Part shown: one piece after another, positions 28,789-36,761 of the stretch
Layout: the number at the start of each line of letters is the position of its first letter
How positions within the stretch are numbered: position 1 is the first letter of the stretch
Source: Ciceribacter lividus
GTDB lineage: Bacteria; Pseudomonadota; Alphaproteobacteria; Rhizobiales; Rhizobiaceae
Assembly (NCBI RefSeq): GCF_003337715.1
Contig: NZ_QPIX01000006.1
Location: forward strand, 124,001 to 188,000
DNA: 64,000 nucleotides
Direction: 5' to 3'
Notes under the pieces: generated by a model
Seen by the model: only the letters and a program-made list of their open reading frames with translations
Database searches by the model: none
What the model was told of the DNA's origin: nothing
Made by a program: the position numbers and the translations under genes

Positions 28789-29565
28789 GTGGCACTCGAG
28801 ATCGTGGACATCAATTGTGATCTGGGCGAGGCGTTCGGCCGTTGGCATGTCGGCGATACCGACGATGCCGCCCTGATGGGACTCATCAGTTCAGCCAACA
28901 TTGCAGCCGGTTTCCATGGTGGTGATCCGAACCTTATGGATCACACGGTGCGCCTCGCGGTCGAACATGGCGTCGGCGTCGGAGCCCATCCCGGCTACCA
29001 TGACCTCCAGGGCTTCGGCCGGAGAAAGATCAACGGCACGGCCCGCGAACTCGTCAACGACATCGTCTACCAGGTGGGCGCATTGCGTGAGTTTGCCCGC
29101 CGCCACGGCACCAACCTGCAGCATGTGAAGCCGCACGGCGCGCTCTACATGGAGATGGCGGTCAACCCGGAGCTCGCACAGCTCTTCGTCACCTACATGC
29201 GCACCGTTGCGCCGAACGCCTACGTCTTCTGCATGGCCGGGTCCGCGACGGAGAAGGCCGCGATCGAGGCCGGCCATCCCGTTGTCCGCGAGTTCTACGC
29301 CGACCGTGACTACGACGAGAGCGGCTCCATCGTCTTCACCCGCGATGCGGGACGTCCCGACCCCGCAGCGATCGCCCGCAAGGTGGTGCGCGCCTGCACC
29401 GAGGGCCGCGTGACGGCCGTCACCGGCAAGGACATTGCGGTCCCCTTCGAGAGCATCTGCTTCCATTCCGACACGCTGGGCGCCCTCGATATCGTCCGCC
29501 ACATGCGCGAAGCCCTGATCGCCGCGGGCATCCGCATCGCCCCCATTTCAGAAATCGTCAGATAA
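28789..29565 (+). CDS. pxpA: LamB/YcsF family protein, 5-oxoprolinase subunit A-like
   Basis: About 258 residues. The GTG at 28789 is chosen because AGGGAAG sits 5 bases upstream and the family begins at once ([14 protein letters not shown]); an ATG at 28765 is the alternative. Family motifs are complete: [43 protein letters not shown] and the late [12 protein letters not shown]. PxpA is the hydrolytic subunit that opens 5-oxoproline after activation by PxpBC. Here it heads an operon that also encodes BCCP and biotin carboxylase, so the substrate may be another lactam or amide. Confidence 0.9.
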
Positions 29566-29577
29566 CGGGAGACCACG

Positions 29578-29820
29578 ATGAGCAAGCTCGAAATCAAATC
29601 GCCCCTGCCGGGAACCTTCTACCGCCGGTCGTCTCCCGACGCCGCACCCTACAAGCAGGATGGAGAGAGCGTGGCAGCCGGCGACGTCCTCGGCCTTATC
29701 GAAGTGATGAAGACCTTCCACGAAGTCCGCGCCGACGCGAGCGGAAGCTCGATCACCTTCGTTGCCGACGACAACGAGCCGATCATGGCCGGCCAGGTCA
29801 TTGCCGAGGTCGAAGCATGA
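29578..29820 (+). CDS. Biotin carboxyl carrier protein (AccB-like)
   Basis: An 80-residue free-standing biotinyl domain. The biotin attachment site is K45 in LIEVMKTF; the usual A-M-K-M/M-K sequence is modified to V-M-K-T as in many single-domain carriers. It opens with the P-L-P-G-T-F-Y-R turn of AccB C-terminal domains, but the long AccB linker is lacking. It overlaps the biotin carboxylase gene by 4 bp. Its partner carboxyltransferase is more likely PxpB/PxpC than AccA/AccD, which are not encoded here. Confidence 0.9.
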   Translation: MSKLEIKSPLPGTFYRRSSPDAAPYKQDGESVAAGDVLGLIEVMKTFHEVRADASGSSITFVADDNEPIMAGQVIAEVEA

Positions 29821-34141: not shown

Positions 34142-34212
34142 TCGCGCGCAGGTTCCGGCGTCTTGTGGGCGCCGGAACCTCTCCCGACAGCAATGATTGG
34201 ACTGATACGAAA

Positions 34213-35727
34213 ATGACTTCGCGGCCACCGCTGGTGGAAATGACCGGCATTGCCAAATCCTATCCCGGCGTGCGGGCGCTCGATGGCGTCGACTTCACGC
34301 TGCAAGCCGGCGAAGTGCACGTCCTCTTCGGCGAGAACGGCGCCGGCAAATCGACGCTGATCTCCATCCTCGCCGGAGTCACCACTCCGACCGAAGGCGT
34401 GGTCCGGATCGACGGCGAGGAGAAGCACTTCCATTCGGTCAATGATGCGCGTGCTGCCGGCATCGGCGCCGTGTTCCAGGAATTTTCGCTGGTGCCGACG
34501 ATGACGGTCGCCGAGAACATCTTCCTCGGCCAGGAACCGCGAAAGATGGGCCTCGTCCAGCACCGGCGCATGTATGCCGAGGCGCATGTCCTCTTCACCG
34601 GCCTCGGCTTTCCGATCGACGTCCGCCGATCCGTGATTTCACTGTCGCGCGCCGAACAGCAGATGGTCGAGATCGCCAAGGCACTGCATCAGCAAGCCCG
34701 CATCCTCATCCTGGACGAGCCGACCGCCTCGCTCACCGAGCGAGAGACGCAGAAGCTCTTCGAGTTCATCGACCGTGCCAAGGGGCGCGGCGTCGGCATC
34801 GTCTACATTTCCCACCGCATTCAGGAATTCAAGGCAATCGCCGACCGCATTACCGTGCTGCGTGACGGTCGCCTGATCGGTACGATCAGCGCCGAGAACC
34901 TGTCGGAAAAGGCTCTCGTCGAAATGATGACAGGCCGCAAGATCGACGAAATCTACCCACACATCACGCGCAGCCCGCAACCGGAACCTGTCCTGACCAT
35001 TCGCGGACTGAGGGCCTGGGGCGTTGACGGCGTCGACATCGACGTCCGCCGCGGCGAGGTTCTCGGCGTTGCAGGCCTCGTCGGCTCCGGAAAATCGCGC
35101 ACCTTCCGCGCCGTCATGGGCCTGCTGCCGACGGCGGACGGTACGGTCACGCTGATGGGATGCGACAAAACCGGTGCGACAACGCCCGAAATGATGCAAA
35201 GCGGCGTCTTCTTTCTTCCCTCCGACCGAAAGGAGGAGGGGCTCCTGCTCGGGGCAAGTGCACGCGCCAACATCGCGCTTTCCATTCTCGACCGGCGCGA
35301 CACGCGCAATGCGCTCGGCCTCGTCTCGCCCGCAGCGCTGCGCCGCCAGTCGAGCGAGATCGGACGCAAGGTTGATCTCAGCGAGGCATTCCTCGAGCGC
35401 GGCACCTCGAAACTCTCAGGCGGCAACCAGCAGAAGATCCTCTTCGGCAAGAGCTTCGGCAGGGACTACGACGTCTACATCTTCGACGAGCCGACCGTCG
35501 GCGTCGACATGGGCACCCGCGCCGCCCTCTACCGCATCATCAAGTCCATTGCCGAGGCCGGCAAGGCGGTCGTGGTGATCTCCTCCGACCTGCCGGAGGC
35601 CATGCACCTCGCCCACCGGCTGATCGTCTTCCGCAACGGCCGCATCTCGGCCGAGCTGGAAGGCGAGGCCATCCAGGAACAGGCAGTCCTCGGCGCCTTC
35701 TTCGATCAGGAAAGAAAATCGGCATGA
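34213..35727 (+). CDS. ABC transporter ATP-binding protein (RbsA type)
   Basis: 504 residues with two ATPase domains; the frame is open far upstream but ATG 34213 starts the first strand (VEMTGIAKSYPGVRALDGVD). Domain 1 has GENGAGKST and ILILDEPTASLTE. Domain 2 has GLVGSGKSR, the signature KLSGGNQQKILFGKSF and YIFDEPTVGVD. It lies 71 bp after the TorT-like gene and overlaps the permease by 4 bp. Confidence 0.92.
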   Translation: MTSRPPLVEMTGIAKSYPGVRALDGVDFTLQAGEVHVLFGENGAGKSTLISILAGVTTPTEGVVRIDGEEKHFHSVNDARAAGIGAVFQEFSLVPTMTVAENIFLGQEPRKMGLVQHRRMYAEAHVLFTGLGFPIDVRRSVISLSRAEQQMVEIAKALHQQARILILDEPTASLTERETQKLFEFIDRAKGRGVGIVYISHRIQEFKAIADRITVLRDGRLIGTISAENLSEKALVEMMTGRKIDEIYPHITRSPQPEPVLTIRGLRAWGVDGVDIDVRRGEVLGVAGLVGSGKSRTFRAVMGLLPTADGTVTLMGCDKTGATTPEMMQSGVFFLPSDRKEEGLLLGASARANIALSILDRRDTRNALGLVSPAALRRQSSEIGRKVDLSEAFLERGTSKLSGGNQQKILFGKSFGRDYDVYIFDEPTVGVDMGTRAALYRIIKSIAEAGKAVVVISSDLPEAMHLAHRLIVFRNGRISAELEGEAIQEQAVLGAFFDQERKSA

Positions 35728-36761
35728 CCAGCAAGCTCGAAACCGCGTCGGTCTCGGACGCCAAGCAGACCCTCTCCCCGACGGCGGCACTGAAAGCCGT
35801 CTTCGTCAGGCTCGGTGCCCTGCCCTTCTTCCTGATCGCGGCGCTGATCCTCTTTTCTCTCGCGTCCCGGCAATTTCTGACCCTCGACAACCTGACGAAC
35901 GTTGCCCGCCAATCGGTCTATCTCGTCCTCGTCTCGCTGGGTCAGATGGTGGTTCTGGTGACGGGCGGCTTCGACCTTGCGGTCGGCACCTCGATCGCGC
36001 TCACCTCGGTCGTCTCGGCTTCGGTCATGGTGTATTTTGCAGCCCAGTTTCCCGACATGGTCTGGCTCGTCATCGTCCTCGGCGTGTCGGCGGGCTTCCT
36101 CGCGGCTCTGGCACTCGGCATGCTGAACGGCATCGGCATCGCACAGTTCGGAGTCTCACCCTTCATCATGACGCTGGGCGTGCAATCCGTCGGTGCCGGC
36201 ATCGCGCTCTTCCTGACCGGCGGCGTGCCGATCGGCAATCTCCCCTTCGAATTCGGGGATTTCTTCGGTTTCGGTCGCGTGCTCGGCATACCCGTCCCGG
36301 TCCTGATCGCCGTCGTCGCCATCGCGGTCATGTGGGTCCTCATGAACCGGACACGCAGCGGCGCCCGCATCTACGCGATCGGCGGCAACATCAAGGCGGC
36401 CAATCTCTCCGGCATCAACACGAAGCAGACACTCTTTCTCGCCTATATCCTCTGCGCGCTCCTGGCATCCGTCGCGGGCGTTCTGCTCACCGCGCGGGTC
36501 GAAAGCGGCGAGACCAATCTCGGCGGCACGATCGCGCTCGAATCGATTGCGGCCTGCGTCATCGCCGGCGTCTCGCTGCGTGGCGGCATCGGTCGGGTGG
36601 AAAGCGTGGTGCTCGGGGCCTTCTTCATCGTGCTCGTCCAGAACGGCATGAACCTGATGCAGATCGGCTCCTACATGCAGATGGTGCTCCTCGGCTCGCT
36701 GCTGATCCTCGCCGTCGTCATCGACCAGTTCCGCTACCGCATGCTCGTCGGGAACCGGTGA
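35724..36761 (+). CDS. ABC transporter permease (RbsC type)
   Basis: 345 residues, about 9 membrane segments. The family signature VVLVTGGFDLAVGTSIALTS lies near residue 75, and GVLLTARVESGETNLGGTIA with LESIAACVIAGVSLRGG near the end. It closes the pxp/carboxylase/transport operon and ends 16 bp before the convergent PLP gene. Confidence 0.92.
   Translation: MTSKLETASVSDAKQTLSPTAALKAVFVRLGALPFFLIAALILFSLASRQFLTLDNLTNVARQSVYLVLVSLGQMVVLVTGGFDLAVGTSIALTSVVSASVMVYFAAQFPDMVWLVIVLGVSAGFLAALALGMLNGIGIAQFGVSPFIMTLGVQSVGAGIALFLTGGVPIGNLPFEFGDFFGFGRVLGIPVPVLIAVVAIAVMWVLMNRTRSGARIYAIGGNIKAANLSGINTKQTLFLAYILCALLASVAGVLLTARVESGETNLGGTIALESIAACVIAGVSLRGGIGRVESVVLGAFFIVLVQNGMNLMQIGSYMQMVLLGSLLILAVVIDQFRYRMLVGNR

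Follow-up and report, generated by a model that had tools for sequence, protein, structure and literature searches.

What reaction is carried out by a PxpA protein and a PxpB/PxpC pair that are encoded together with a biotin carrier, a biotin carboxylase and an ABC importer of their own? The question is raised by a locus of Ciceribacter lividus contained in a 64,000-nucleotide stretch of contig NZ_QPIX01000006.1 (positions 124,001 to 188,000 of the forward strand; hereafter, the window). Eight genes form a single + strand operon at window positions 28789 to 36761, in the order pxpA, biotin carboxyl carrier protein (BCCP), biotin carboxylase (BC), CT1 (the PxpB homologue), CT2 (the PxpC homologue), periplasmic binding protein, ABC ATPase, and ABC permease; a LysR gene is divergent from it. 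All of these elements had been proposed in a first-pass annotation of the bare sequence, and all were found where it had placed them. Our analysis suggests that the product most likely combines a split enzyme of the urea-carboxylase type with PxpA and is lactamase-like, and we consider it somewhat probable that the operon as a whole specifies both a biotin-dependent lactamase and the importer serving it.

The first gene, pxpA (28789 to 29565, +, GTG start), encodes the proposed ring-opening subunit, a member of the LamB/YcsF family (Pfam PF03746, 299.9 bits) that scores 292.8 bits with the NCBIfam 5-oxoprolinase PxpA model NF003814 (cut-off 226). The BCCP gene (29578 to 29820, +) encodes 80 residues, with the biotinyl Lys45 within the motif EVMKTF, and the BC gene (29817 to 31199, +) encodes 460 residues; their products exceed the cut-offs of NF005457 (125.6 bits; cut-off, 87) and NF009471 (763.8 bits; cut-off, 686), respectively, both of which are curated models carrying the name acetyl-CoA carboxylase. 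The carboxyltransferase is divided between CT1 (31199 to 32074, +), which represents subdomains C/D (Pfam CT_C_D, PF02682, 129.6 bits; cut-off, 22.1), and CT2 (32064 to 33032, +), which represents subdomains A/B (Pfam PF02626, 295.4 bits) and also exceeds the cut-off of TIGR00724 (259.5 bits; cut-off, 230.2). The overlap of gene ends that had been claimed for this region holds from BCCP through CT2 (4 bases for BCCP/BC, a CT1 start ATG at 31199 whose first base is the final base of the BC stop codon, and 11 bases, 32064 to 32074, for CT1/CT2), but pxpA and the BCCP gene are separated by a gap of 12 bases. Carboxyltransferase, biotin carrier with biotinyl Lys, and biotin carboxylase, i.e., the three components of a biotin-dependent carboxylase, are thus all predicted from the window genes, whereas Pfam revealed no HyuA/HyuB-type caprolactamase subunit among the eight.

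CT1 remained below every NCBIfam cut-off, including those for PxpB (TIGR00370, 65.0 bits versus 145.55) and urea carboxylase (TIGR02712, 119.6 versus 1303.85). The latter model, which describes the fused urea carboxylase, was not reached by any part (522.5 bits for BC, 119.6 for CT1, and 231.2 for CT2), and the PxpC model NF045499 gave 217.5 bits against a cut-off of 500. By curated cut-offs, the predicted enzyme is neither a PxpABC 5-oxoprolinase nor a urea carboxylase.

A single residue of CT1 offers an approach to its chemistry. In the urea amidolyase of Kluyveromyces lactis, Lys1605 is the general base of the urea carboxylase carboxyltransferase (PMC5770610), and K175 of CT1 (numbered on window 31193 to 32071) aligns to this residue. 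The position was scored in 129 carboxyltransferase rows, comprising 10 urea carboxylases, 103 split Lys-type proteins, and 16 Arg-type proteins, i.e., ordinary PxpB. Lys is present in all 10 urea carboxylase rows. A BC gene lies within 8 kb of all 103 split Lys-type CT1 genes, accompanied by BCCP and PxpA in 100 of them, whereas for the Arg-type rows a BC lies within this distance in 6 of 16 cases and none in the other 10. An unbiased sample of PF02682 (28 matches) gave the same picture, with a BC in 12 of 12 Lys cases (the window counted) versus 6 of 16 Arg cases (P = 0.0006 by a Fisher test, which ignores relatedness, as do the other Fisher tests used here). The patterns that served to fetch the 80 best loci discussed below omit the Lys/Arg residue. 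Lys versus Arg in CT1 may serve as a one-residue marker separating two kinds of PxpB homologue.

The phylogenies were quick ones, with SH-aLRT (approximate likelihood ratio test) values as the only support and with long branches meeting among the Arg-type rows; within these limits, the CT1 tree places the split Lys-type proteins beside urea carboxylase and apart from every Arg-type row (SH-aLRT, 97), and the PxpA proteins of Lys-type modules are likewise set apart by a branch (SH-aLRT, 94). In the CT1 tree, PxpB falls into three kinds: the split Lys-type and two Arg-types, one of which lacks BC while the other has a fused BC-BCCP. Genes for the biotin transporter BioY adjoin 23 of 94 Lys-type loci (15 of 80 and 8 of 14) versus 0 of 16 Arg-type loci (P = 0.017), a comparison in which the BioY neighbours were confirmed by Pfam for 4 proteins only and stretches of 9 to 15 kb (Arg-type) are set against stretches of mostly 20 kb (Lys-type); one Lys-type locus is adjoined by the biotin synthase gene bioB. 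The BC aligns over its full length with solved biotin carboxylases, and Lys45 of BCCP is invariant in all 9 aligned sequences. The predicted structure of CT1 was poor (mean predicted local distance difference test [pLDDT] value, 55.6), and its matches, e.g., to 3va7 (Z score, 10.5; 158 aligned residues; root mean square deviation, 3.0), provide weak support. Because the general-base Lys is kept, BC is full length, the biotinyl Lys is invariant, and bioY genes and in one case bioB are found as neighbours, biotin-dependent carboxyl transfer by the window enzyme, as put forward in the first-pass annotation, is supported. That annotation had also held that PxpB/PxpC are without biotin partners in most genomes, which proved too strong: 6 of the 16 Arg-type loci have a BC, and C. 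lividus itself possesses a second pxp locus with a fused BC-BCCP. The BC genes near these six Arg-type loci also count against our interpretation, since biotin partners alone are therefore no mark of a different substrate. A blastn search of E. coli genomes with an Arg-type gene gave no match.

The following scheme would accommodate these features. The binding protein and the ABC pair would import a small lactam or its precursor; BC would carboxylate the biotin carried by BCCP at the expense of ATP and bicarbonate, and the resulting carboxybiotin would deliver CO2 to the split urea-carboxylase-type CT1/CT2, which would pass it on to the lactam, with the nitrogen of the ring as the most likely site. 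The ring thus activated would then be opened by PxpA, and the resulting carbamate would lose CO2; overall, a stable lactam would be hydrolysed to an omega-amino acid at the cost of ATP. The scheme would correspond to urea carboxylase plus hydrolase, with PxpA replacing allophanate hydrolase, and it is by analogy with urea carboxylase that the amide nitrogen is proposed as the carboxylated atom. The carboxylation half of this mechanism is well supported by the sequence features described above, while the ring-opening half would rest on family membership and on linkage in relatives. The reaction as such, the formation of a complex, and the exact lactam acted on by the window copy are what we infer from these data.

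As to the substrate, genomic context favours small lactams; the individual compounds named in the first-pass annotation are guesses. Caprolactamase CapA exceeds its curated cut-off in 5 of 387 alphaproteobacterial genomes, and all 5 are among the 22 genomes that possess the module (hypergeometric P = 3.7e-7; a product that also takes position into account, 1e-11, presupposes independence and was not relied on); at most two candidates per genome were scored in this survey, and a smaller near-complete sample gave the same two of its 114 genomes. In all five cases CapA and CT1 lie on the same contig, at distances of 2.4, 2.4, 2.8, 4.7, and 13.5 kb. HyuA-type neighbours at the fetched loci were scanned in 18 of 19 cases (the one at L073 was omitted because of a wrong-strand open reading frame [ORF]); 13 of these 18 matched caprolactamase at an E value of 1e-300 and 5 were not caprolactamase, so that the count of 19 of 80 loci with HyuA/CapA mixes caprolactamase with other HyuA. 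The matching neighbours include those of close relatives of the window, e.g., the Shinella locus L032, whose CT1 is 86% identical. γ-Aminobutyrate (GABA) transaminase (GabT), a marker chosen after it had been seen, exceeds its cut-off beside the module in three lineages (Ruegeria, Pannonibacter, and a Hyphomicrobiales metagenome-assembled genome), and in the last of these its gene lies on the same strand, 172 bases 3' of the permease gene, in a locus (L072) with the gene order of the window. Both linkages support the lactam-type substrate and the ring opening by PxpA that had been predicted from the sequence.

Molybdenum-containing hydroxylases (Mo-hydroxylases), which can convert N-heterocycles to lactams, are encoded next to 9 of the 80 and 4 of the 14 Lys-type loci; of the 35 loci that share the importer type of the window, 11 have such a neighbour. 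Cruder counts by ORF tiling within 5 kb at 106 loci (BioY, 18; HyuA, 19; Mo-hydroxylase, 13) can pick wrong-strand ORFs and were not used.

Earlier reports are in line with a lactam substrate. Caprolactamase requires bicarbonate, and carboxylation of the lactam is among the mechanisms proposed by its authors (PMC8453981); PxpA is referred to as a renamed fungal lactamase in PMC9258230; and lamA and lamB of Aspergillus nidulans act in lactam catabolism (PMC8016842).

Several observations weigh against a transfer of this substrate to the window copy. CapA, GabT, and Mo-hydroxylase genes were not found in the window's own neighbourhood, CapA over the cut-off is absent from the C. lividus genome, and the GabT of this genome is encoded on another contig. 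The 35 loci with the importer type (binding protein above 300 bits) and the 19 loci with a strong HyuA/CapA match have no member in common, and the 17 genomes with the importer do not include any of the 5 CapA genomes. The CapA-linked and the importer-type sets being disjoint, the substrate can be transferred to the window by enzyme homology only, with CT1 identities of 73 to 87% across the aligned subtypes, which need not all act on precisely the same compound. Moreover, GabT lies beside only 3 of the 80 best loci and near the module in 0 of the 17 importer genomes, CapA is near just 5 of 22 modules, and in the class of genome G433 (276 genomes), where the module is absent and CapA occurs once, the linkage is not repeatable.

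One alternative would be a biotin-dependent 5-oxoprolinase, with the same chemistry and 5-oxoproline as substrate. 5-Oxoproline is itself a lactam, PxpA exceeds the cut-off of the 5-oxoprolinase model NF003814, and PxpABC activity is the known function of these homologues (PMC13274462). However, the window homologues of PxpB and PxpC stay below the 5-oxoprolinase cut-offs, relatives of the module are linked to caprolactamase and GABA transaminase, and the genome possesses another pxp locus, L009, which with its D-glutamate cyclase and Nramp-type transporter genes represents the expected 5-oxoproline set; we consider this explanation improbable. We also regard it as unlikely that the biotin enzyme acts on an amide, whether cyclic or linear, other than a simple lactam; hydantoins, imides, and compounds formed when N-heterocycles are hydroxylated would be examples. 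Such a substrate would fit the Mo-hydroxylases beside Lys-type and importer-type loci and the 5 of 18 HyuA-type neighbours that are not caprolactamase, but among rare genes it is caprolactamase that shows the strongest linkage, and GABA transaminase indicates a plain omega-amino acid.

Similarity to urea carboxylase, which both CT1 and CT2 match and whose general base is kept in CT1, could also be taken to mean that the operon encodes a urea (or guanidine) carboxylase in split form, accompanied by a partner unusual for such an enzyme. This is very unlikely, as the module includes PxpA, an allophanate hydrolase was not seen among the eight genes, and the genome already has a fused urea-carboxylase-like gene (L010) together with an allophanate hydrolase-like gene. 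That an acetyl-CoA or acyl-CoA carboxylase is encoded, as the NCBIfam names of BCCP and BC would suit, is hardly credible, because the eight genes include no CoA-type carboxyltransferase and the sole carboxyltransferase is of the urea-carboxylase type. A biotin-dependent lactamase is the interpretation we favour for the operon.

In its most specific form, the lactamase interpretation would mean an N-carboxylating lactamase that constitutes a new class of biotin enzymes and converts γ-butyrolactam (2-pyrrolidinone) to GABA, a proposal that we make tentatively and consider rather doubtful. If it holds, the operon would supply the missing mild enzyme for γ-butyrolactam; OplAB is reported to be active on δ-valerolactam, with mere traces of product from γ-butyrolactam (PMC11033972). 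LamB/YcsF proteins would be recast, with PxpA as a general ring opener fed either by Arg-type PxpBC, as in 5-oxoprolinase, or by a Lys-type carboxyltransferase plus biotin. Should the broader lactamase interpretation be right, a widespread operon would encode an enzyme that opens lactams by a mechanism so far unfamiliar for these compounds, and genes for BCCP and BC labelled as acetyl-CoA carboxylase in many genomes may belong to amide catabolism. The five genes make the bacterial opening of stable small lactams accessible to ordinary assays. PxpABC was reportedly defined in a 2017 paper in the Journal of Biological Chemistry. Within the portions of the literature covered by our search, a PxpA with its own BC and BCCP was found undescribed, although an earlier mention in the paper defining PxpABC is possible, and no description of lactam opening by activation with biotin and CO2 was found in these portions. 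One report mentions two adjacent UCT-like genes of unknown function, with biotin partners unmentioned in the section concerned (PMC3199775).

The import system is of the CUT2 type, with a Peripla_BP_4 protein, a double ABC ATPase, and a BPD_transp_2 permease (Pfam). It is encoded by the genes for the TorT-like binding protein (33068 to 34141, +), for an ATPase with two ABC domains (about 34210 to 35727, +; PF00005 in two stretches, start set by inspection), and for an RbsC-type permease (35724 to 36761, +; PF02653, 115 bits), the last two overlapping by 4 bases. The binding protein scores 426.4 bits with the broad TorT model NF008185 (cut-off, 200) and stays below the model for the TorT of trimethylamine N-oxide (TMAO) systems, TIGR02955 (297.9 bits versus 310). 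Its nearest solved relative is 4yhs from Bradyrhizobium sp. BTAi1 (BBta_2440; 76% identity over 331 residues), and a locus of that strain (L066) carries the same eight genes as the window. Homologues at an E value of 1e-100 occur in 17 of 387 alphaproteobacterial genomes. Of 14 homologues with at least 63% identity (the window counted), 13 lie beside the enzyme module and the 14th (L127) lies on a contig that ends before it. That the binding protein is the mark of a TMAO system was considered and rejected; its three homologues of 46 to 48% identity (L129 to L131) are without an enzyme module in the fetched stretch and lie near large sensor-kinase-like proteins (by inspection). That the importer belongs with the enzyme system, as the first-pass annotation had assumed, is supported by the positions of the closer homologues. 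The window's type of binding protein is found in only 22 of the 80 best loci, and in the genomes of the class sample the transporter genes sit either 5' or 3' of the enzyme genes; the unit consists of the enzyme module, which is combined with exchangeable transporters. In many rhizobial relatives, such as L006, L007, and L008, CT2 is followed on its 3' side by a GntR gene and then by an operon for an ABC transporter, two short-chain dehydrogenases/reductases, a polysaccharide deacetylase-family protein, and a CobW-type GTPase.

Far from being an oddity of the C. lividus genome, this gene arrangement is an established and widespread type; the biotin-partnered organization, presented as unusual in the first-pass annotation, must be regarded as common. 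A scan of genome contigs for CT1 relatives returned at least 596 stretches, at least 562 of them encoding a relative, of which the best 80 were kept; these are the closest relatives of the window and not independent (L064 and L007, for instance, are stretches of one record, and the record of L032 recurs among the plasmid matches). The complete five-gene enzyme set is present in 76 of these 80 loci, and the remaining four (L043, L068, L086, and L091) are located at a contig end. The window's CT1 type was found in 22 of 387 alphaproteobacterial genomes and in 0 of 276 genomes of the class of G433. The five enzyme genes are also clustered on plasmids of Alpha- and Betaproteobacteria, Rubrobacter, and one haloarchaeon; a stretch of a Rhodococcus plasmid encodes PxpA, BCCP, BC, and part of CT2, and any CT1 would fall outside this stretch. 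In one case, a plasmid of Agrobacterium tumefaciens, the module has an annotated CBASS anti-phage system as its neighbour (L008, 3771 to 8118).

The LysR-type regulator gene (27604 to 28503, -) encodes a protein with Pfam HTH_1 and LysR_substrate domains that reaches no NCBIfam cut-off, and it is retained next to the enzyme module in most of the relatives fetched. Located 5' of pxpA is a perfect 10-base palindrome with a 3-base spacer (28681 to 28703), a 22-base core of which is invariant in 7 aligned upstream regions, including that of one near-identical relative (L019); it is likely a candidate LysR operator. Just 3' of the operon lie two threonine/serine dehydratase-like genes for pyridoxal phosphate (PLP) enzymes, at 36781 to 37827 (-) and 38299 to 39546 (-). 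The product of the former belongs to the PALP family and reaches no NCBIfam cut-off, whereas the latter and nearby Lrp-like and AraC-like frames were recognized by inspection, as was a RuBisCO-like frame (26036 to 27220, +) behind a transketolase-like frame.

Elsewhere in the genome, the second pxp locus, L009 (contig C8, 82000 to 96000), carries at positions 2527 to 8783 on the - strand genes for an Nramp-type transporter, PxpA, a D-glutamate cyclase, a fused Arg-type PxpBC, and a fused BC-BCCP. The Corynebacterium pxpTABC cluster pairs PxpABC with its own transporter (PMC13274462), and the neighbours at L009 likewise fit the use of 5-oxoproline. A plain biotin-free 5-oxoprolinase at L009 was rejected on account of the BC-BCCP fusion (Pfam), and biotin may play a part in some 5-oxoprolinases. 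These parts are arranged differently in a locus from a genome of the window's family (L139, 6997 to 14015), which contains an Arg-type PxpB, with PxpA, BC, and BCCP-like frames 3 to 6 kb away on the opposite strand. The third locus of C. lividus, L010 (contig C13), encodes a fused urea-carboxylase-like protein of 1185 residues with a Lys-type carboxyltransferase, followed by an allophanate hydrolase-like protein of 601 residues (by inspection); urea as the substrate of the window enzyme was rejected on account of this separate urea-carboxylase-like gene. With L009 and L010 present, neither 5-oxoproline nor urea requires the operon of the window.

Compared with known systems, the window enzyme resembles urea carboxylase and urea amidolyase (K. 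lactis, 3va7 and 5i8i) in its BC, BCCP, and carboxyltransferase types, its general-base Lys, and its grouping in the CT1 tree, but it consists of four separate polypeptides instead of one, has PxpA for allophanate hydrolase, and stays below TIGR02712. With PxpABC 5-oxoprolinase it shares PxpA and the PxpB/PxpC homologues within one operon, and it differs by its own BCCP and BC, by Lys for Arg in CT1, and by scores below the PxpB and PxpC cut-offs. The Arg-type pxp loci with fused PxpBC and BC-BCCP (L009, L134, L138, L142, and L144) likewise unite PxpA, PxpBC, and biotin carboxylase; unlike the window, they have an Arg-type CT1, fused genes, and separate CT1 and PxpA clades. In 9yx5, by its title MSMEG_0435-MSMEG_0436 bound to the long chain acyl-CoA carboxylase complex of Mycobacterium smegmatis, a PxpBC-type pair is docked on a complex that holds biotin carboxylase, whereas its CT1 is of the Arg type and the biotin domains belong to another enzyme. 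Finally, the caprolactamases CapAB and OplAB of the HyuAB family would have in common with the window enzyme the proposed net ATP- and bicarbonate-dependent opening of a lactam, and relatives show linkage of CapA with the module, but they belong to unrelated protein families, work without biotin, and have no representative over the cut-off in this genome.

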